Origin: Acidimicrobiales bacterium
GTDB taxonomy: Bacteria; Actinomycetota; Acidimicrobiia; Acidimicrobiales; Poriferisodalaceae
NCBI GenBank assembly: GCA_014239555.1
Contig: JAAZYR010000003.1
Span: 62,001 to 126,000 of the forward strand
DNA: 64,000 bases
Direction: 5' to 3'
A model generated the notes under the pieces. It searched no databases. It was not told where the DNA came from and saw only the letters and a program-made list of their open reading frames with translations. A program made the position numbers and the translations under genes. Shown piece after piece: positions 5,270 to 15,448 of this stretch. Each line of letters begins with the position of its first letter. Position 1 is the stretch's first letter.

Positions 5270-5623
5270 TCAACAGAACGCGCTTGCATCACATCCAGCG
5301 GGGTCCTGCCAGAAGGCCAGCGAAGTCCCCATAGCGGCGAACACAACTACTGCGAGTATCAATCCCGTCACGAACAGATAGCTAAATACCTTGCTGTCAA
5401 ACTTCAAATGCATGAAGTAGGAGACGACGATTTGGAACTTAACGACCATAAGTATGAGCAGTGACGGGATTTCCACAACTCCAAAATCGACGAAGTAGGT
5501 CGCTACTTCGACACCTGTAAGGATGGCAAGAATGAGAGCGACCTTGATATAGCCAACGTCACTCAAGCCATGATCAGAATGTTCTTGGTGCGTCTCGTCC
5601 TCGGAGACTGTGGCGGTGTTCAT
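5270..5623 (-). CDS. Cytochrome c oxidase subunit IV-type protein (COX4_pro family)
   Basis: 117-residue membrane protein with three helices, at about 27-46, 51-72 and 82-106. The segment ending helix 2, YFMHLKFDSK, is the hallmark of prokaryotic subunit IV (PF03626). It is the last gene of the oxidase operon, just after ctaE, with a TAGGAG ribosome-binding site 10 bases before the ATG. The N-terminus is charged and histidine-rich (HQEHSDH). Known role of the family: assembly or stability of the heme-copper oxidase, without cofactors. Confidence 0.82.
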   Translation of the reverse strand: MNTATVSEDETHQEHSDHGLSDVGYIKVALILAILTGVEVATYFVDFGVVEIPSLLILMVVKFQIVVSYFMHLKFDSKVFSYLFVTGLILAVVVFAAMGTSLAFWQDPAGCDASAFC

Positions 5624-5636
5624 ATGACCAATGCTC

Positions 5637-6281
5637 CTAAGGGATCAGATAGACGACCGCGAAGATAACAATCCACACGATGTCAACAAAGTGCCAATAA
5701 AGGCCGATTATTTCAATAGTTTCAGCGCGTTCGGGACCTAAGTTTCCCCGAGTGACAAGCACCCACATCGTCACGAGCATGACTATGCCCAGAGAAACGT
5801 GCACCCCATGAAAGCCGGTGAGGGTGAAGAAAGCAGACGAGGAGATGTTGGTCGTAAAACCAAGGCCTTCCCGATAAAACCCTGTGAATTCGTAGACCTG
5901 GCCGGCAATAAAAATGGAACCCAACGCGGCGGTGGTTAACAACCACAGCTTGCATCGCTCCATTTCGGCTCTTTGTATGGAAGTCACTGCTAGCACCATG
6001 GTCAACGAACTCATCAGAAGAACAAACGAGCTAACTGAGGTAAACGGAATGTCGAAAAGGTCTGCGGCTGTCGGACCTTTGGTTGCGGGACCAACTCGAT
6101 TCCGGCACAGCAAATAGGTCGAGATAAGGGCACCGAAAAGTAGACAATCTGAACCTAAGAAGGCCCACATCGTGACCTTTTCGTTGGTCAACCCAGTATT
6201 CGTCGGCAGGTGATGGTGGTCGTCCCAATCAGTTCGGCCGTACGCCAGTTCAGAGGTCTGGGTCTCAGCAGTATCAGCCAA
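5637..6281 (-). CDS. ctaE: Cytochrome c oxidase subunit III
   Basis: Membrane subunit III of the aa3 oxidase. The TTG at 6281 is the best start: a GAGGAGG ribosome-binding site lies 5-6 bases upstream and the TTG overlaps the ctaD stop by 8 bp. Earlier in-frame starts would extend the overlap and add unconserved sequence. The resulting 214 residues match the family. Conserved features are MWAFLGSDCLLFG in the first helix, GQVYEF, the FHGVHV motif and the terminal WHFVDIVWIVIF helix. Five helices are visible, the short actinobacterial form. Confidence 0.93.
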   Translation of the reverse strand: MADTAETQTSELAYGRTDWDDHHHLPTNTGLTNEKVTMWAFLGSDCLLFGALISTYLLCRNRVGPATKGPTAADLFDIPFTSVSSFVLLMSSLTMVLAVTSIQRAEMERCKLWLLTTAALGSIFIAGQVYEFTGFYREGLGFTTNISSSAFFTLTGFHGVHVSLGIVMLVTMWVLVTRGNLGPERAETIEIIGLYWHFVDIVWIVIFAVVYLIP

Positions 6282-8277
6282 CGGGGGCCTCCTCGGCTGT
6301 GTCGTTGTCACTGCCATCGGGTTCAGTTGTGTCCGGGTCCTGATGCTCTCCGTGCCCATCATGACCAGCGTCAGGATCAGTAGCCGGCTCGAGACTCCAG
6401 CCATACATAGAGCCAAGCATCAGCAACAACCCGATTCCAGACAGCCACAGGTTGTAGATCAACCCCAGGGCAATCAGCGGAAGCCCCGCCGCGAGCACGA
6501 TGGGCCAATACGAAGCTGAAGGTAAGTGGGGGTGTTGGTCTCCCTTTTGAGCAATGTCGTTGCCATCAGCAACTTTGCGGAGCTTGCCTGTTTCGTCTGT
6601 CTGGTACTTCTTGTGCCAGAAATCGTCAAGATCAGTGACCACAGGGACGTAATCAAAGTTGTGTTCAGGAGCGGGTGAAGGTATCGCCCATTCGAGGGTC
6701 CTCCCGTCCCACGGATCAGCTCCCTCTTGTGGGACTGTTCCCGCTTTATAACCGAGCCAGGTCCGAACAATGTTGATGGCGAAGATAATCATGCCCATCA
6801 AGATCACGAAAGCGCCGATGCTCACCACAGCGTTCCAAAAGTCGAACCCGTCTTCAGGTCCGTAGTTGCTGTGCCGACGCGCCATGCCTTGCAAGCCGAG
6901 TATGTGCATGGGACCGAAGGTCATGTTGAACCCGATGAGCACGAGCCAGAAGTGCCATTTCCCGAGAGCTTCGTTGAGTTTGTAGCCGAACGCTTTTGGC
7001 CACCAGTAGTACATCCCGGCGAACAACCCCATTAGTGCCCCACCAAAAAGTACATAGTGGAAGTGGGCGACAATGAAATAGGTGTCGGTTTGCTGGGTGT
7101 CAGCGGGCGCGACTGCATGCATCACACCAGACAACCCGCCGATTGTGAACATTGAAACCAGTGACACGGAGAACATCATTGGCACCGTAAATTTGATGTT
7201 GCCGCCCCACATTGTTGCGATCCAGTTCAAAATCTTGACACCAGTCGGCACTGCGATGAACATCGTTGTTGCAGAGAAAGCTGCCACTCCGACTGGTCCG
7301 AGGCCGGAAACGAACATGTGGTGTGCCCAAACCCCCCAGCCCATAAACCCGATCGCCGCGCCCGAAATTACAATGACCGAATAACCAAAAAGAGGTTTCC
7401 GTGAGAACACTGGCAATGTTTCGGAGACAATGCCAAATGACGGGAGAATGAGGATATACACCTCTGGGTGTCCAAAAATCCAAAAGAGGTGTTGCCAAAG
7501 CAACGGATCTGCGCCCATTGCAACGTTGAAAAAGTTGGCGTCAAATGTCCGGTCGAAGCTGAGGAGCACCAGAGCAACTGTGATGACTGGCAAGGCAAAG
7601 AGCAGCAAAAACTGGACTACCAGAATCATCCAAGTGAAGACCGGCATTCGAAGCATGGTCATCCCGGGTGCTCTCATATTGACGATCGTCACAATGAGAT
7701 TGATCGAACCCACCAGGGAGGCGATGCCCACTATTTGGAGTCCAAGTGCATAGAAATCCATGCCATTACCAGGTGAGTAGGTCATGCCGGTATTGGGGGC
7801 GTAAGCGAACCAACCACCGTCTGGGCCACCACCCAGGAACCAACTGAGATTCAGAAAAATTCCTCCGAAAATGAACAGCCAGAGACCCAAAGCGTTCATG
7901 CGTGGGAAGGCGACGTCTCGGGCTCCGATTTGCAGGGGCACCATGTAGTTCGCAAACGCTGCCGCGAGCGGCATGATGACGAGGAACACCATTGTTGTGC
8001 CATGCATCGTGAAAATCTGGTTGTACTGGTCTGCAGTCAGCACGCTGCCGTCTGGGGTAAATAGCTGCAACCTGATCAGAAGTGCTTCGATACCTCCCCA
8101 AAAGAACCAGAACATTGCAACAACGCCGTACATGATTCCGATTTTTTTGTGGTCAACGGTAAAGAACCACGCACGCCAACCGCTGGCGTGGGTGGGACGC
8201 GCGAACACCCCCGTTGTGGGGGCGATCTCGCCTGATTCAAGTTCGAGGATTTCGGGTGATTCCTCGGTCATGGCCAT
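6274..8277 (-). CDS. ctaD: Cytochrome c oxidase subunit I (catalytic, aa3 type)
   Basis: Catalytic subunit reducing O2 to water and pumping protons. All metal ligands are present: H92 and H407 for heme a, H405 for heme a3, and H270, H319 and H320 for CuB, with the cross-linked Tyr274 and the proton-channel Glu272 of GHPEVY. K348 fits the K channel. At 667 residues it is longer than the core enzyme; after about residue 580 there is a linker, two extra helices (SYWPIVLAAG to MLGSMYGWSLEP) and an acidic His/Asp-rich tail, resembling a fused actinobacterial subunit IV. AGGAGA lies 9 bases before the ATG. Same operon as ctaC. Confidence 0.97.
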   Translation of the reverse strand: MAMTEESPEILELESGEIAPTTGVFARPTHASGWRAWFFTVDHKKIGIMYGVVAMFWFFWGGIEALLIRLQLFTPDGSVLTADQYNQIFTMHGTTMVFLVIMPLAAAFANYMVPLQIGARDVAFPRMNALGLWLFIFGGIFLNLSWFLGGGPDGGWFAYAPNTGMTYSPGNGMDFYALGLQIVGIASLVGSINLIVTIVNMRAPGMTMLRMPVFTWMILVVQFLLLFALPVITVALVLLSFDRTFDANFFNVAMGADPLLWQHLFWIFGHPEVYILILPSFGIVSETLPVFSRKPLFGYSVIVISGAAIGFMGWGVWAHHMFVSGLGPVGVAAFSATTMFIAVPTGVKILNWIATMWGGNIKFTVPMMFSVSLVSMFTIGGLSGVMHAVAPADTQQTDTYFIVAHFHYVLFGGALMGLFAGMYYWWPKAFGYKLNEALGKWHFWLVLIGFNMTFGPMHILGLQGMARRHSNYGPEDGFDFWNAVVSIGAFVILMGMIIFAINIVRTWLGYKAGTVPQEGADPWDGRTLEWAIPSPAPEHNFDYVPVVTDLDDFWHKKYQTDETGKLRKVADGNDIAQKGDQHPHLPSASYWPIVLAAGLPLIALGLIYNLWLSGIGLLLMLGSMYGWSLEPATDPDAGHDGHGEHQDPDTTEPDGSDNDTAEEAPVG

Positions 8278-8311: not shown

Positions 8312-9481
8312 TCAACTTGGCATCAGTGGCGGGGGGCCACCGAGGGTACTGAGGTATGTAACGATGTCATCAAGATCGGTCTCATTAAGAACCTCTGCAA
8401 ATGAGACCATGCCCTGACGGTTGTCAGGGCGAGCAGGCTTTTGATCGGGGGCATTTCGAACCCATTCACGCAAGTCTGCGATATTTACGGAACCATCATC
8501 GTTGTAAAGCTCAAATACTGAACCGGCAAACGATGTTCGGGTCATTAGATGTGTCAGATTAGGTGCATATCCAGAGGTCAGATTGGCGTTGCCATTTGCC
8601 GCAGCTTCATATACGCCGTTCACAACGTGGCAACTGACGCAATGTTGACCAAAAAGATCGTATCCGCGTTTCGCGGATGCAGCGGTCGGGACACTCGAGG
8701 CTTTCATTTGCTCTTCGACCCATGCATCGTAATCGTCTTGCTCTAGAGCTACAGCTCGCATCTGCATGTTTGCATGGCTAAGTCCACAGAATTCAGTGCA
8801 CTCTCCATAGAAGATTCCCGGCACTGGGGAACTAATCCGCCAATGATGAACACGTCCAGGGACGGCATCTTTTTTACCGTTCAATTGCGGAATCCAAAAA
8901 GAGTGGATGACGTCATTTGAGAGAATTTCGAGGTTGATTTCCTCTCCGATTGGGATCACGAGATCGTTCGCCGTCACTATGTCTGCGACGCCGTCTTCGT
9001 CGATGTCGTAGCTGAACTGCCACCACCACTGCTGACCTTCAACTTTGATGGTCCGCCCGTCGCTTTTCCCACTGAGGTCGAACACAGTGGGGATAGTGAC
9101 AACTGCAAGGAAGACCAACAGCAAGACCGGGATCACCGTCCAGGTAAGTTCAGCCTTTCTATTGCCATGGATTTGTTCTGGGAGGTCGTCGGGGTCGTCG
9201 TCAGGTCGAGCTCTGAACTTGACAATCACTGCGATCACTGCGATCGCTACGAAGATCCCTACCGCTGCGGCGAGGTATCCCGAGAGCCGCATAATCCCAT
9301 CGATTTGTTTGGCATTTTCGCCAACGGGATCAGTTGGGTCGATCCGCCCACTCGCGCATGCGGTCAGGCCTGTGATTAGGGCGAATAACGCGCTGAGCCG
9401 AACTGCTCGATACAAAATGGGGCGTTGCGTGGCCATTGAGTTGGTCGTTACCTCAGTTAGTTTCGTGTTTGTCGCGGTCAT
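8312..9481 (-). CDS. ctaC: Cytochrome c oxidase subunit II with fused cytochrome c domain
   Basis: Electron-entry subunit. A signal segment ends in the lipobox LTAC (C42), a second helix spans about 66-88 and another about 113-131. The CuA site is complete: H193, C228, E230, C232, H236 and M239. From about 265 a mono-heme cytochrome c domain follows with CVSCH at 281-285, so the donor heme is built into the oxidase (caa3-like). The ATG overlaps the upstream stop by 4 bp, which fixes the start. 389 residues. Confidence 0.95.
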   Translation of the reverse strand: MTATNTKLTEVTTNSMATQRPILYRAVRLSALFALITGLTACASGRIDPTDPVGENAKQIDGIMRLSGYLAAAVGIFVAIAVIAVIVKFRARPDDDPDDLPEQIHGNRKAELTWTVIPVLLLVFLAVVTIPTVFDLSGKSDGRTIKVEGQQWWWQFSYDIDEDGVADIVTANDLVIPIGEEINLEILSNDVIHSFWIPQLNGKKDAVPGRVHHWRISSPVPGIFYGECTEFCGLSHANMQMRAVALEQDDYDAWVEEQMKASSVPTAASAKRGYDLFGQHCVSCHVVNGVYEAAANGNANLTSGYAPNLTHLMTRTSFAGSVFELYNDDGSVNIADLREWVRNAPDQKPARPDNRQGMVSFAEVLNETDLDDIVTYLSTLGGPPPLMPS

Positions 9482-10266
9482 CGGATCACCACTGGCGCGT
9501 CAAGATCTGGCGACGAGTGCTCATCGGTGGAGTCGTGAGTGTCATCAGATTCGCTGTGATCTTCCTCTCCTCCGTGGTGGTGGAAGTCTCTTTCGCCTCG
9601 TGCAGTTGCCGCGATGCCACCAATAATGAGGGCGAGAGCTCCGACCACTAGGAAAGACGCAATGACTGATCGACGCAATTCCGGTTTTGCGTAGATAAGA
9701 AAAGCGAAGGCCAAGATAAGACTGGAAGCGATGATGGCGAAATAACTTGCACCGTTCTTGCTCGATGTCAGCAAGATTCGCGAGATGAGCAGCACCGGTA
9801 CAGCAATCGCGAGTGCACCGTAGAGGGGAATCTCAAACGGCGCTAAAATTCGGTCGCGTTCGACTGAATTGGCTTCCTGGTCTGTCGAAAGATGTTCAGC
9901 CCATGAACTGAAGGTCCACTCAACAGCGGAGATGAGCATCGCAGAGATACCAACGATGGCGATGAACCCGTCGGTGACGAGGCCAACCATCAGTATCCCG
10001 AGGCCCAGGGAACCCATGATTGGCCACCAAGCCGGAATGGCTGGATGGTTGTGAACTCGGTCACGGTCAATCGAATCGCCGTCTCCAACCGATACGGCAA
10101 GACTTGCTAAAAGAGCGAATGCTGCGGCTGCGGTCCCCAAAACAATCGTGCCGAACATGACGATATGTCCGTTGTTATCCATGCCTGTGACGAGGCCAAG
10201 AATCACCGCTGCTGCGGTGGCCAAGGCCACACGGCCGGCGAAGTATCTGGTTGCGATGCCGAGCAT
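9478..10266 (-). CDS. Polytopic membrane protein with His/Asp-rich tail, oxidase-operon linked
   Basis: I do not recognise a characterised family. The 262-residue protein has about seven hydrophobic segments, with an internal loop of conserved look (HNHPAIPAWWPIMGS near 72-87), and ends in a soluble tail very rich in His, Asp, Glu and Ser (HHHGGEEDHSESDDTHD, about 228-244). The tail could bind copper or another metal. It lies inside the oxidase operon, between the degenerate subunit III gene and ctaC, overlapping ctaC by 4 bp, with AGGAGA before its ATG. Best guess is an assembly or accessory subunit of the oxidase. Confidence 0.7.
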   Translation of the reverse strand: MLGIATRYFAGRVALATAAAVILGLVTGMDNNGHIVMFGTIVLGTAAAAFALLASLAVSVGDGDSIDRDRVHNHPAIPAWWPIMGSLGLGILMVGLVTDGFIAIVGISAMLISAVEWTFSSWAEHLSTDQEANSVERDRILAPFEIPLYGALAIAVPVLLISRILLTSSKNGASYFAIIASSLILAFAFLIYAKPELRRSVIASFLVVGALALIIGGIAATARGERDFHHHGGEEDHSESDDTHDSTDEHSSPDLDAPVVIR

Positions 10267-10273
10267 GGTTCTC

Positions 10274-10867
10274 CTACTTCACCACGTACACGGTGTACCA
10301 AGTCGCAGCCCATGCCAGCGCTGCAAAATCCCAAAAGAAGACTGCGGCTCCTAATGCCGTACTCCCCTGCTGTCCAACACTGCCCCCGAGGGAGCGGAGC
10401 CCCATCAGCCCCAAGTAAACGAGTCCCACAACAACAATCGCTAAAGCGAGCCCTGTCGTAGCGAAGGCAAGGTTTTGATATTCGCCAGCGCCAATTTCCA
10501 GACCCATACGGTTGAGGCTATACATCACCATGTTGATGAAACCCAGCCCCAACACAATCGTTGTGGCGATCGCCGTCCAGGCGTGTGCGTTGTCTCGTCG
10601 CCGGCTGGCCCACAGAGCCCAGTGCGCCGTCACCATAGATGCAACCAGAGTCAGCAAGGCATAAACCATCTGCGGATTCGGTACCGCTAACCCATTGAGC
10701 CAGTCATGGCCGGGGTGCGGACCAGAAGCGTGTCGTCGAGCCATGTAGAGCCCTAATGCTCCTGCCATCATCATTGAGCACGCAGCGCACGCAAAACCTG
10801 TTGCCACAAGTTGTGCCCGAGGTCGTTGCGGGCCGCCTGAAGCCAAAGTTGGAGCGGTGTCAGTCAT
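10274..10867 (-). CDS. Divergent cytochrome c oxidase subunit III-like protein
   Basis: 197-residue membrane protein with five helices, placed directly after the degenerate subunit I and sharing one base with its stop (TGATG). The overall pattern matches subunit III, with the charged AHWALWASRRRD loop where canonical ctaE has SIQRAEMER. The conserved FHGVHV motif is replaced by a plain hydrophobic run, and the final WHFVD by FWDFA. I read it as a relative of subunit III that no longer keeps the family's polar residues, co-evolved with its subunit I-like partner. A TTG one codon earlier is possible but less likely. Confidence 0.75.
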   Translation of the reverse strand: MTDTAPTLASGGPQRPRAQLVATGFACAACSMMMAGALGLYMARRHASGPHPGHDWLNGLAVPNPQMVYALLTLVASMVTAHWALWASRRRDNAHAWTAIATTIVLGLGFINMVMYSLNRMGLEIGAGEYQNLAFATTGLALAIVVVGLVYLGLMGLRSLGGSVGQQGSTALGAAVFFWDFAALAWAATWYTVYVVK

Positions 10868-12543
10868 CAAACTGATGCCTCCTCAGCTTCAGCTGCATCA
10901 AGCAACGGGGTCCCCGAAACAAGTGTTGGTAGCTCATCTGGTTCACCAATCGGCGGGGGTGAAGGGAGCATCCACTCAGGTGACTGTGCCGACCATGGGT
11001 CTTCACCAGCCGTGACACCTTTCTTCATACCCACCGAAATCAACAAATTAAGTAAAAGCAGGCCAACGCCTCCCAAAAGAATAACTACACCCGCCACACC
11101 AATCACACTGAAGGTCTCGGCTCCGTTGTCATCGACCCAACTTGCGTAGTTGGCAGTTGCGTTGGGGTCCGCGTAAACGAAGTCAGGTTGTTCGGTGAAG
11201 AGCCCCGACAGCGCTGGACCGAGGAATGCCAGTAGCGCTCCTGCGCCTATGACAAGGAAGCTGAGCATGCCCAGTAGATCATTTAACTGCCTGCCCCAAA
11301 TCTTGGGTGCCCACCAATGGACAGCTGCCAGAAGCCCAAGAAGTCCCGCACCGTAAATCAGAACGGATTGTTGTCCCGTCACCCAGGTCGTCATTCGCAG
11401 CTGCGGGTTCCCGTCATTTCCACGTCCGGCAATTTCTAACCAGTCAGCGGCTGCGCCAATCAGGCCGTATAGAGCTCCGAACAGGATTAATGTGCCAGCC
11501 CCTAAGGCCGCCAGAACTGAAGTGGTGATTTTAGGCATTTTGCGGTTTTGGATCAAAGCGAGTCCAAGAAGACCCAGAAGGCCGGCGGTACCGAGGAAAG
11601 CTCCCGCGTAGAGACCAACCAACACAACGCCTTCAAGACCATCAATGATGTCGGCGCCTTCGCCTGTAACCGAGAAGTTGGCCCACGCACCAAACCCAAA
11701 AAGACCGACAAGTCCAAGAGTGAAGTACATGGCAAGAGGTTCAAATACCCGGCGTTTTGCGGTAGCGAGAACAATCTCAGCAGTAACACCGAGTATTGGA
11801 ACTACGTAAATAAACAACTGAGGCGTGCGATGAATCCAGTCGATCCGTTCCCAAATCCCATAGTTGCCAGCTAGAAAAACTCGGCCATAGCGGTGATCGA
11901 TATAGAGAATCCCTATTTGGCCAAGCAGTACTGGCAAGCTCACAACCAACATTGACGCCGAAACCAAAGCTGACCACGCAAAGGGTGGAGTCGCGTCTAG
12001 GTAAAGCCCTGGCGACCGCATCGTCATCACCGTGGTTGCAACAGCGATCGATCCAAGTAAAAGCGAGACGACAAGGCCGCCCAACGCGAGCAAATGCAAA
12101 TCGACGCCATTTGCCCAACCCCCATACGGGCCACCATTACCGAGATACGCGCCAATTAGAACAACACCAGATACTTGCCACGACCAGAACGACGCTGTTG
12201 CGGCTCGAGGGAATGCGAGGTTCGGGGCGCCAATTTGCAAAGGCACCATATAGATGGCTACGCCAAGGAACGCCGGGATCAGGAAAAGAAGGGTCAGGGT
12301 TTCGCGAGAAAAGGTAAAGCCTTGAGCGAAACCGTCACTTCCAAGACTCACAAAATCCGTAGCTGATGTCAGATCCAATCTGACTAACAAGTCAAGAAAA
12401 ACACCTAAAACCAAATACAGCATGGAACTGATGATGAACAACCGCCCGGTTCGTTTGTGGTCCGCGGTTGTTAACCACCCAAACGGAGTCGGGTCTTCGA
12501 CGGGTACACCTCTAGACGTTGTTGCAGTGGTGTTTTCGCTCAT
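10867..12543 (-). CDS. Cytochrome oxidase subunit I homologue lacking all metal ligands
   Basis: 558-residue, 12-helix-like protein clearly derived from heme-copper oxidase subunit I: MVPLQIGAPNLAFPR (99-113), GNGGPYGGW, SPGL and APKIWGRQLND align with the catalytic ctaD of this window. Aligned by eye, every redox ligand is changed: heme a His to S79 and S393, heme a3 His to Q391, CuB His to T240, N289 and F290; Glu of HPEVY to Q242 and Tyr to F244. The open frame is intact, has a ribosome-binding site and heads the oxidase operon, so it is kept as a protein. It cannot bind heme or CuB in the usual way; a scaffold, assembly or quinone/cytochrome docking role is inference. Confidence 0.85.
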   Translation of the reverse strand: MSENTTATTSRGVPVEDPTPFGWLTTADHKRTGRLFIISSMLYLVLGVFLDLLVRLDLTSATDFVSLGSDGFAQGFTFSRETLTLLFLIPAFLGVAIYMVPLQIGAPNLAFPRAATASFWSWQVSGVVLIGAYLGNGGPYGGWANGVDLHLLALGGLVVSLLLGSIAVATTVMTMRSPGLYLDATPPFAWSALVSASMLVVSLPVLLGQIGILYIDHRYGRVFLAGNYGIWERIDWIHRTPQLFIYVVPILGVTAEIVLATAKRRVFEPLAMYFTLGLVGLFGFGAWANFSVTGEGADIIDGLEGVVLVGLYAGAFLGTAGLLGLLGLALIQNRKMPKITTSVLAALGAGTLILFGALYGLIGAAADWLEIAGRGNDGNPQLRMTTWVTGQQSVLIYGAGLLGLLAAVHWWAPKIWGRQLNDLLGMLSFLVIGAGALLAFLGPALSGLFTEQPDFVYADPNATANYASWVDDNGAETFSVIGVAGVVILLGGVGLLLLNLLISVGMKKGVTAGEDPWSAQSPEWMLPSPPPIGEPDELPTLVSGTPLLDAAEAEEASV

Positions 12544-12730: not shown

Positions 12731-13648
12731 TCAGCTGACAGCCCCAAAGGCCAACACGTCAATAGCGATAGCAATGAACAACGCCCCCAGGTAGACGATT
12801 GAGAAGGTAAATACCTTCATTGCTTGCACCGCGTCTGGACGGCGTAGCAGCCCAATCGTACGCCACAAGAACAACAAACCGAAGACCAGCGCGACGGCTA
12901 AATATAGAAAACTGGTTTCAGCCTCTAGGTGGAACCAGAGCGAGAAGGCAATTACAACGATCGAATAACCAAACATTTGGATCGCTGTTCCGCGAGTACT
13001 GACGACCACTGGCAACATCGGTACCGACGCGGCTTCATAGTCGTCTGCGTATTTGATAGCTAGTGCCCAAAAATGTGGTGGTGTCCAAAAAAATATGATC
13101 GCAAAAAGCAAAACCGGACTTAACGCCAGCGAACCTGTCACTGCGGCCCAACCGATAAGCGCTGGCGCGGCACCAGCAGCACCACCAATGACGATGTTTT
13201 GCTTTGAGGTTCGCTTGAGCCAGAGCGAGTACACGAAGACGTAAAAGAGGCAAGCCCCGACCGCTAGCAGCGCTGAAAGTAAATTCACCCAAGTCACAAA
13301 TAAAACAAAAGCTGCAATTTCGAGCGCGAATCCAAATAGGAGAGCGGCTCGAGGAGAAACCGCTCCCGTAACTAAGGGGCGTCCTTGAGTTCGTTTCATT
13401 AGCTGGTCGATATCACGGTCGATGAACATGTTGAACGTATTCGCACCACCAGCGGCAAGCGTCCCACCTACCACGGTCACAACAACAAGCCACAGATCAG
13501 GCATCCCGCCTTTTGCAACAATCATCGATGGGACAGTGGTGATCAATAACAGTTCAATAATTCGTGGCTTCGTGAGCATCACAAAAGCGGCCGCTGTTGC
13601 GGCCACACCTCTGTCGGTCTTTTCGATGGTCGTCGTGCTGTGCTCCAT
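12731..13648 (-). CDS. ctaB: Protoheme IX farnesyltransferase (heme O synthase)
   Basis: UbiA-family membrane enzyme adding a farnesyl group to heme b, making heme O for heme A synthesis. The first aspartate-rich motif is NMFIDRDID, followed by MKRTQGRPLVTG; the second region is YADDYEAA. About nine hydrophobic helices. The ATG at 13648 gives 305 residues; an in-frame TTG or GTG upstream would add an unconserved leader. It is divergent from ctaA with about 90 bp between them, and the 187 bp after it hold no recognisable gene before the oxidase operon. Confidence 0.94.
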   Translation of the reverse strand: MEHSTTTIEKTDRGVAATAAAFVMLTKPRIIELLLITTVPSMIVAKGGMPDLWLVVVTVVGGTLAAGGANTFNMFIDRDIDQLMKRTQGRPLVTGAVSPRAALLFGFALEIAAFVLFVTWVNLLSALLAVGACLFYVFVYSLWLKRTSKQNIVIGGAAGAAPALIGWAAVTGSLALSPVLLFAIIFFWTPPHFWALAIKYADDYEAASVPMLPVVVSTRGTAIQMFGYSIVVIAFSLWFHLEAETSFLYLAVALVFGLLFLWRTIGLLRRPDAVQAMKVFTFSIVYLGALFIAIAIDVLAFGAVS

Positions 13649-13739
13649 CGGGCGCCACGATACGGCCCCGAGCACCCGGTTACCCAACTACAGGCTGTTG
13701 ATTCGCTCAGAATGTTGTCCGGCACCTAACTTCAAGGGC

Positions 13740-14627
13740 GTGACATTCCCCCGGCTAACTCCTCAGCAATACCATTCGGTCACGCGTGTTGCCCTGTGGT
13801 CTCTTGCTGTCATAGTGGTTTCGGGGGCTGCGGTACGTCTCACTGGCAGCGGTCTCGGTTGCAGCGATTGGCCTAACTGTGAAGCTGGCCAGCTAGTCCC
13901 CGAAGCCGACTTTCACGCCTGGGTGGAGTTCGGAAATCGAATTATTACTGGTCTCGTATCTATCGCTGTGGTTTTGGCCGTTTCAGGATCAACCCTGCGC
14001 AGCCCACTCGTCAGCAAACTGACCAAATGGTCTTTGGGACTCGTAGCTGGAGTCGCAGCCCAGATTGCCCTAGGTGCGATAACCGTCATCACTCATTTAT
14101 CACCCCCGGTAGTTATCGGACACTTCTTGTTGTCGATGGTGCTCATCTGGAACGCCGTGGTCCTTGAAGATCTTGCTCGACCAAATGGCACTATGAGCCA
14201 AAACGGGCACCTTGCTCGGTCTCTACATCGACACATAAGTGTCGTGGTCGCGGCGACTGCGTTAGTTGTCATGACCGGGACGCTCGTGACTGGGAGTGGC
14301 CCCCACGGTGGTGATGAGAGCGTCGAGAGGTTGGGGTTACCTTTTGCGGAAATAGCCCAAGTCCATGGCGGGGCCGTCATTATTCTTTTGGTGCTCACCG
14401 GCACCCTTCGTTTTCGGATTCAGAATTCGCAGAACACACTGGTGAAACACCGGGTTAACGTCGTTCTCCTCGTGATGGTCCTTCAAGCGGTTATCGGTTA
14501 CACGCAATACTTCACACAGCTGCCAGTTTTACTGGTCGGGTTTCATGTGGCGGGTGCAACAATTCTGTGGGTGTCAGCAGTTCGATTAGCCCTGGCCGCG
14601 CGAACATCTTGCTTCAAGGTGGGTTGA
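13740..14627 (+). CDS. ctaA: Heme A synthase
   Basis: COX15/CtaA membrane protein oxidising heme O to heme A. The open frame runs far upstream over ctaB, but homology begins after the GTG at 13740, so I use that start (295 residues), preceded by AAGGG. The extracellular cysteine pair is in [13 protein letters not shown]. Histidines of the duplicated helix bundle are visible in [17 protein letters not shown] and GFHVAG. The first bundle has EFGNR where many bacteria have EFGHR; asparagine there is common in actinobacteria. Eight helices. Confidence 0.92.
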
Positions 14628-14664
14628 CTTGGTTTACCCATATTTCGTTTCAGGAAATGAGTCA

Positions 14665-14964
14665 ATGAGTGAGACCGAGAGTTCGCCTGTCGTTACTGAT
14701 GACGAAAGTCCGGGTTTCGTCACCGACGAAGACATTCCCTGGGTTGTTTTGGTGTGGAATGATCCAATAAACCTCATGAGCTACGTAGTTCACGTTCTTC
14801 AGAAACTTTTTGGTTATAGCTCTGAAAAAGCGACCCAATTAATGCTTGATGTTCATCACAAAGGCAGAGCTGTTGTATCGAATGGCAGCCGAGAAAAAGC
14901 CGAGTTAGATGTGTTCAGGCTCCATGAGTTCGGACTTTGGGCCACTATGCAGAAAGACCTTTGA
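14665..14964 (+). CDS. clpS: ATP-dependent Clp protease adaptor ClpS
   Basis: Adaptor delivering N-degron substrates to ClpAP/ClpCP. The core begins [21 protein letters not shown], close to the family's NDDYTPMEFVV region, and continues with [13 protein letters not shown] and a Lys/Glu stretch before the final helix. The ATG at 14665 follows AGGAAATGAG and gives 99 residues with a disordered acidic N-terminus; an upstream in-frame TTG start is less likely. DUF2017 follows one base after the stop, the usual actinobacterial pair. Confidence 0.93.
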
Positions 14965-14965
14965 C

Positions 14966-15448
14966 GTGTTTTTCAGATACCGCTTCCATCAACGAAAAGA
15001 CGGAATGATGGAAGTAAAGATTGGCGAGGAGGAACGTCAACTGATCGGCGATCTCATTGATCAGCTACGCGAATTGCTCTTGGCTACTTCTCCGGAAGGG
15101 AAGCTCGACCCATCACTGCGACGCCTCTACCCCACTGCCTACGTCGAAGATGTTCGCCATGAGCAGGAGTACCAACGTTCGGCGCGAGACCAACTGTTAG
15201 AACGACGGTTATCGCACCTCGACGTGGTCGAAGCCACACTCCACGATGCGGAATTAGATGCTGATTCGGTGACTGCTTGGATTACAACAGTGAACGATTT
15301 ACGACTGGTACTTGGCACTCACCTAGATGTGAGTGAAGACGACGAACCAAAAATTCTTGACTCTGACAACCCACAAGAACAGCAACAAGCGATCTACCAC
15401 TATCTCAGCCATCTTCTCGGAGAGTTTGTCGAGGCTGCTGGGCGCTAG
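14966..15448 (+). CDS. DUF2017 family protein
   Basis: Actinobacterial protein of unknown function, normally encoded beside clpS. The product from the GTG at 14966 has 160 residues and begins MFFRYRF, as members do; upstream residues in the open frame overlap clpS and look spurious. It is helical and charged, with LRRLYPTAYVED and a DLRLVLGTHLDV segment typical of the family. No signal peptide, helix or catalytic motif is seen. The conserved pairing suggests a role in Clp proteolysis, but this is unproven. Confidence 0.82.
   Translation: MFFRYRFHQRKDGMMEVKIGEEERQLIGDLIDQLRELLLATSPEGKLDPSLRRLYPTAYVEDVRHEQEYQRSARDQLLERRLSHLDVVEATLHDAELDADSVTAWITTVNDLRLVLGTHLDVSEDDEPKILDSDNPQEQQQAIYHYLSHLLGEFVEAAGR

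Follow-up and report, generated by a model that had tools for sequence, protein, structure and literature searches.

A ligand-free homologue of oxidase subunit I, accompanied by homologues of subunits III and IV, in the caa3 oxidase operon of Acidimicrobiales: a candidate structural partner of the active enzyme

The closest described systems to the locus studied here are the A-family oxidases (aa3, caa3 and bo3) with their catalytic subunit I, CtaD/CoxA; cytochrome bd, where the CydAA' of archaea was reportedly the subject of work by Murali, Gennis and Hemp in 2021 (ISME J; cited by PMC8951039); and the actinobacterial bcc-aa3 supercomplex (CtaC, CtaD, CtaE, CtaF), in which we know of no second, ligand-free subunit I. 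Membership of the heme-copper superfamily is taken to be defined by six ligands. An oxygen-reductase classifier used the six His ligands as an inclusion filter and discarded sequences without them (PMC3084760), so that ligand-free members would be filtered out, and this filter may account for the family described below having gone unremarked. The sequence-only reading of this DNA knew of no description of such a protein, and a literature search of open-access papers likewise found no earlier account of a ligand-free subunit I.

The window analysed was a 64,000-nucleotide stretch of an Acidimicrobiales genome (contig JAAZYR010000003.1, positions 62,001 to 126,000). On its minus strand, positions 10867..12543 encode a subunit I homologue, termed I' (pseudo-CtaD), which starts with ATG and runs for 558 amino acids with zero internal stops, the frame thus being intact as had been claimed. 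Pfam COX1 matched residues 32–458 (E=2.8e-45), and BLASTP gave 26% identity to the CtaD of its own operon. In a multiple alignment none of the six heme and copper ligand columns held His in I' (bovine numbering H61S, H240T, H290N, H291F, H376Q and H378S) and the heme-propionate Arg was also gone, the states at H290, H291 and this Arg being dependent on the alignment, as they fall in poorly conserved stretches. Further substitutions were found at the CuB-linked Tyr (Y244F), at the proton-channel Glu (E242Q) and at the D- and K-channel residues (D91N, N98A and K319L). In the BLASTP alignment of I' with CtaD the final two ligand positions were displaced by one column, still without His. Misalignment as the cause of the missing ligands was ruled out: I' holds just five His (29, 150, 217, 238 and 409) and no Cys, so realignment cannot bring the heme and copper sites back. 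The sole I' His common to CtaD is H29, in the N-terminal DHK motif. The sequence-only reading had claimed that all six His of heme a, heme a3 and CuB were changed, together with the CuB-linked Tyr and the proton-channel Glu, and had named a proper alignment beforehand as a possible refutation; that alignment agreed with it throughout. Among homologues, isolated single His at the H290, H291 and propionate-Arg stretches were seen in two loci (L036, L057), likely by chance.

The fold, whose defining motifs had been said to be kept, was recovered when the structure of I' alone was predicted. An AlphaFold2 model built on a 25-row alignment adopted a subunit I fold (pLDDT 85, pTM 0.91), and Foldseek with this model returned subunit I of bo3 and aa3 oxidases as top matches, with probability 1.00 and TM ~0.8. 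Against the NCBIfam CtaD_CoxA equivalog, I' scored 197.6 bits, below the cut-off of 670.75. The window's I' has the fold and homology of subunit I but lacks the ligands, channels and equivalog score of a catalytic one.

A view of I' as a lone oddity was rejected, since its neighbours III' and IV' are duplicated as well. III' (10274..10867, minus strand) is a subunit III homologue of 197 amino acids counted from the ATG at 10867, the listed open reading frame (10274–10870) including an upstream TTG, and its start overlaps the I' stop as TGATG. Pfam COX3 matched it with E=1.7e-8 and 35.1 bits, above the gathering score of 23.8, and also matched 21 of the 22 members of alignment A3, in which CtaE is included. 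IV' (9478..10266, minus strand; P0003) is a 262-amino-acid membrane protein whose N-terminal half is homologous to actinobacterial CtaF (subunit IV), followed by more transmembrane helices and a His-rich acidic tail. Within its first ~130 positions the IV' family profile (A2) matched cytochrome c oxidase polypeptide 4 (CtaF) of mycobacteria and corynebacteria, PDB 8hcr_H being matched at positions 6–132 with E=1.4e-5. No Pfam family, Cyt_c_ox_IV included, matched the window's IV' above cut-off; among its homologues the best Cyt_c_ox_IV score was 24.6 bits (L060), below the gathering score of 26.9. The predicted fold of IV' had a low pTM (0.53), and a PDB search gave no match. The tail itself (9478–9590) is strongly His-rich and acidic in the window's family (HHHGGEEDHSESDDTHDS...) and possibly binds metal.

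The catalytic set follows on the same strand. CtaC (8312..9481), which overlaps IV' by 4 nt, is a subunit II with an intact CuA motif (CTEFCGLSHANM) and a fused cytochrome c (CVSCH); CtaD (6274..8277) retains 6/6 ligands and intact D- and K-channel residues, its C terminus being a fused subunit-IV-like part; CtaE, the catalytic subunit III, has ORF limits of 5637..6416, its true start probably being an ATG near 6320; and COX4_pro, the caa3 subunit IV, lies at 5270..5623. The genome holds two COX1 genes, I' and CtaD. The gene overlaps suggest translational coupling, and by homology and gene content I'-III'-IV' reads as a repeat of the oxidase core minus subunit II. I' had been described as heading the operon: it is the first of the structural genes, but its place as first of the transcript is uncertain, since a ctaB-type UbiA prenyltransferase gene (12731..13687) precedes it by 187 bp in the same orientation. 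The ctaA gene (COX15-CtaA; 13422–15448, plus strand) diverges from ctaB, which places genes for heme A synthesis at the flank of the I' operon; clpS and a DUF2017 gene come after ctaA. Elsewhere on the contig (L107, genome G000, contig C33), ~22 kb before the window, lies a cytochrome bc cluster in which cytochrome b is split into N- and C-terminal genes. The cluster also includes a Rieske protein, a ferredoxin-like gene and a c-type cytochrome in which two stretches were matched; complex I genes adjoin it.

At least 25 family-level groups of Acidimicrobiales have I' homologues, as tallied over the sampled genomes and loci; the relatives that carry names are Ilumatobacter and Acidimicrobiia/Acidimicrobiaceae MAGs. 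I' was present in 5/5 same-genus genomes searched and in all but one of the same-family genomes. The single exception, G007 (6.2 Mb, 960 contigs), gave zero COX1 matches of either kind and is possibly a chimeric bin; its genus mate G015 has them. The order I'-III'-IV'-CtaC-CtaD-CtaE-Cox4 was seen in every sampled locus spanning both I' and the canonical set, among them 31 loci from 17 families. Where a genome has two oxidases, as G094 does (L050, L069), I' stood beside one CtaD clade only. I' was absent from the genomes read for some families of the order (L043, L044, L045, L065, L067). In other orders and classes the top matches retrieved were all canonical CtaD, although the scores of I' and CtaD overlap and a low-scoring I' could escape. 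H240 was absent, and the CuB site gone, in every I' checked.

Selection was then compared across the operon. Against same-genus genomes, dN/dS was 0.036–0.056 for I', 0.031–0.067 for III', 0.050–0.082 for IV' and 0.038–0.083 for CtaD, the last range omitting G005, in which CtaD is split. I' is thus under strong purifying selection, like the catalytic CtaD. At the deeper level, distances were ~4.6-fold longer for I' than for CtaD, and the matrices of the two proteins were correlated (r=0.85, Mantel p=0.0002), a result that shared history in one operon could alone yield. As I' evolves several-fold faster than CtaD between families, any interface would be loosely constrained. It could be argued from this fast divergence that I' is a decaying pseudogene or an assembly artefact. 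The chance of that is negligible, and the conservation and selection data refute it: frames were intact in dozens of independent genomes, with dN/dS ~0.05. Random decay in homologues was the other refutation named in advance, and the data point the opposite way; the idea of a retained inactive subunit I gains from the purifying selection, the order-wide conservation and the single origin.

That origin was examined by phylogeny, both I' and CtaD being placed in the tree for 31 loci from 17 families. In the careful tree, which omits later loci (the tree holding them is a quick one), I' was separated from all catalytic subunits by one branch with support of 100/100 and one change, indicating a single origin, and the derived I' clade that includes the window had support of 95/89. 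When the tree was rooted on catalytic CtaD, His-bearing I' lineages diverged first and the fully stripped clade with the window was nested. The first-branching lineages still have both axial ligands of low-spin heme a, H61 and H378, and H376 persists in some of them as well. H240, a CuB ligand, was lost once, at the base of I'. In the early lineages the tail of IV' is a cupredoxin with type-1 (T1) copper ligands, for example YHN...CDFHPNM. Pfam Cupredoxin_1 matched these tails above cut-off in L037, L038, L039, L040 and L046 (best 1.6e-11) and below it in L035; the C-x2-H-x2/3-M motif was present in the IV' tails of 25 loci and missing from the window's family. Among 56 I' rows, the heme pair and the T1 site were both present in 23 and both absent in 30; two had the pair only (L027, L047) and one the T1 site only (L119), so that 23/25 rows with the heme pair carry a T1 cupredoxin fused to IV'. 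The association is strong with few independent events, and an independent-pairs test was not significant. On this phylogeny the CuB ligands were lost at the base and the bis-His heme site and T1 cupredoxin later; the window's clade has none of them, and its inactive state is the end point of a stepwise loss.

Two further features of IV' and its surroundings were recorded. In the Ilumatobacter-like family f7 (L059 7226–8353, L066 7344–8477, L060 and L103), IV' carries an extra conserved C-terminal domain of ~110–150 amino acids with a conserved Cys, in the position of the cupredoxin of other lineages; profile similarity was negligible, and a degenerate cupredoxin, though suspected, is not claimed, as profile comparison gave just 7% probability. 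In L038, a lineage with the T1 cupredoxin, an ORF that is thioredoxin/TlpA-like by its CxxC sequence lies between IV' and CtaC (7091–7732).

It could be that the window's I' binds heme or another ligand through unrecognised residues and has an unrecognised activity. Polar residues recur at the old sites (Q/T240, Q242, Q/N290), and an Arg directly after the old H61 position (I' residue 80, window ~12304–12306) occurs in 26/34 I' rows without the heme pair and 0/7 with it (Fisher p=0.0003, the rows not being phylogenetically independent). This Arg may fill the emptied heme pocket, although that idea was not upheld, as the p value is not independent of phylogeny. With five His in the protein, none in a ligand column, no Cys, and the propionate Arg and proton-channel residues lost too, an activity of this kind is very unlikely.

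Another interpretation is that the module acts as a docking bridge through which the oxidase is joined to the bc complex or to an electron donor. A T1 cupredoxin on early IV' would suit electron delivery, and a cytochrome bc complex with a split cytochrome b is encoded on the same contig. Note, however, that the module's redox centres are gone in the window's clade and that every lineage checked already has a cytochrome c fused to CtaC; a loss of this cytochrome c was looked for in the T1 lineages and not found. A bridge appears distinctly improbable.

The module could also be a dedicated assembly factor, transiently holding nascent CtaC, CtaD and CtaE (or heme, or copper) and not present in the mature enzyme. 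The I' gene sits between ctaB and the structural genes, its fast evolution would suit a chaperone, and the TlpA/thioredoxin-like ORF of L038 is of a type tied to CuA assembly (PMC8239418). A chaperone would not need duplicated subunits III and IV, however, the window's I' lacks any heme or copper ligand that could serve in cofactor handling, and tight gene packing favours comparable amounts of product. An assembly factor is an unlikely reading of the locus. Given the tight packing, the III/IV duplication and the exclusive tie to a single CtaD clade, a lasting place beside the oxidase is favoured over a transient chaperone role.

Indirectly, from gene order, overlaps, co-occurrence and selection, we infer that the module probably associates with the oxidase. 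The reading we prefer, and hold to be somewhat better than evenly supported, is that I'-III'-IV' is a pseudo-oxidase module, a duplicated A-family core without subunit II, assembled with the catalytic caa3 enzyme (CtaC-CtaD-CtaE-Cox4) into one asymmetric complex. Among the three roles first offered (structural half of a heterodimeric complex, docking subunit, assembly factor), the structural half appears to fit best, since III and IV are duplicated with I' and the genes are tightly packed. Against a joint complex counts the lack of a duplicate subunit II, as contacts mediated by II would be missing. The module would be produced together with the caa3 oxidase and joined to it. In the early form, electrons would pass from the T1 copper to the low-spin heme of a module riding on the caa3 oxidase, and this module, its CuB being gone, would be incapable of O2 reduction, and likewise of pumping through D or K channels. 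In the window's clade the module would have a structural role only: it would hold, protect or position the active half, in the manner of heme-free CydB beside CydA; with no redox centre left, selection must act on structure. We give even weight to the broader proposal that across most of the order the oxidase is an asymmetric double complex of a caa3 core and a pseudo-core, the latter a T1-copper/low-spin-heme module at first and, in the window's clade, stripped yet indispensable.

What makes the family of interest is that selection has kept a ligand-free subunit I over much of an order, along with a III and IV of its own. Because intermediates survive (first without CuB but with the heme pair and T1 site, then without any of these), it can be tested directly whether a redox subunit can turn into a scaffold, and what an additional, inactive core contributes to a proton-pumping oxidase. 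If the proposal is true, the intermediates show in nature the passage from redox enzyme to scaffold inside the heme-copper superfamily.

Compared with the systems named at the outset, I' is most like the A-family subunit I, with which it shares the fold, the COX1 match, the N-terminal DHK, a C-terminal DPW..LEW and the type of operon; it differs in that the CuB site is missing from every member checked and that the window's clade has also lost the heme ligand pair, the D and K channels and the propionate Arg. The early IV' C-terminal domain, with its H...C-x2-H-x2-M, resembles the small blue copper proteins (plastocyanin/amicyanin type, Cupredoxin_1), but is here fused to a subunit-IV-like membrane protein in an oxidase operon, and the window's family is without it. 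The bcc-aa3 supercomplex is similar in that the N-terminal half of IV' is homologous to its CtaF, whereas CtaC here carries a fused cytochrome c. Finally, cytochrome bd (CydB/CydA and archaeal CydAA') offers the likeness of a catalytic-subunit paralogue without heme ligands, there a partner in a heterodimer and here a candidate one; its fold and superfamily are unrelated, and in the present case subunits III and IV are also duplicated and intermediates with heme and T1-copper sites survive.
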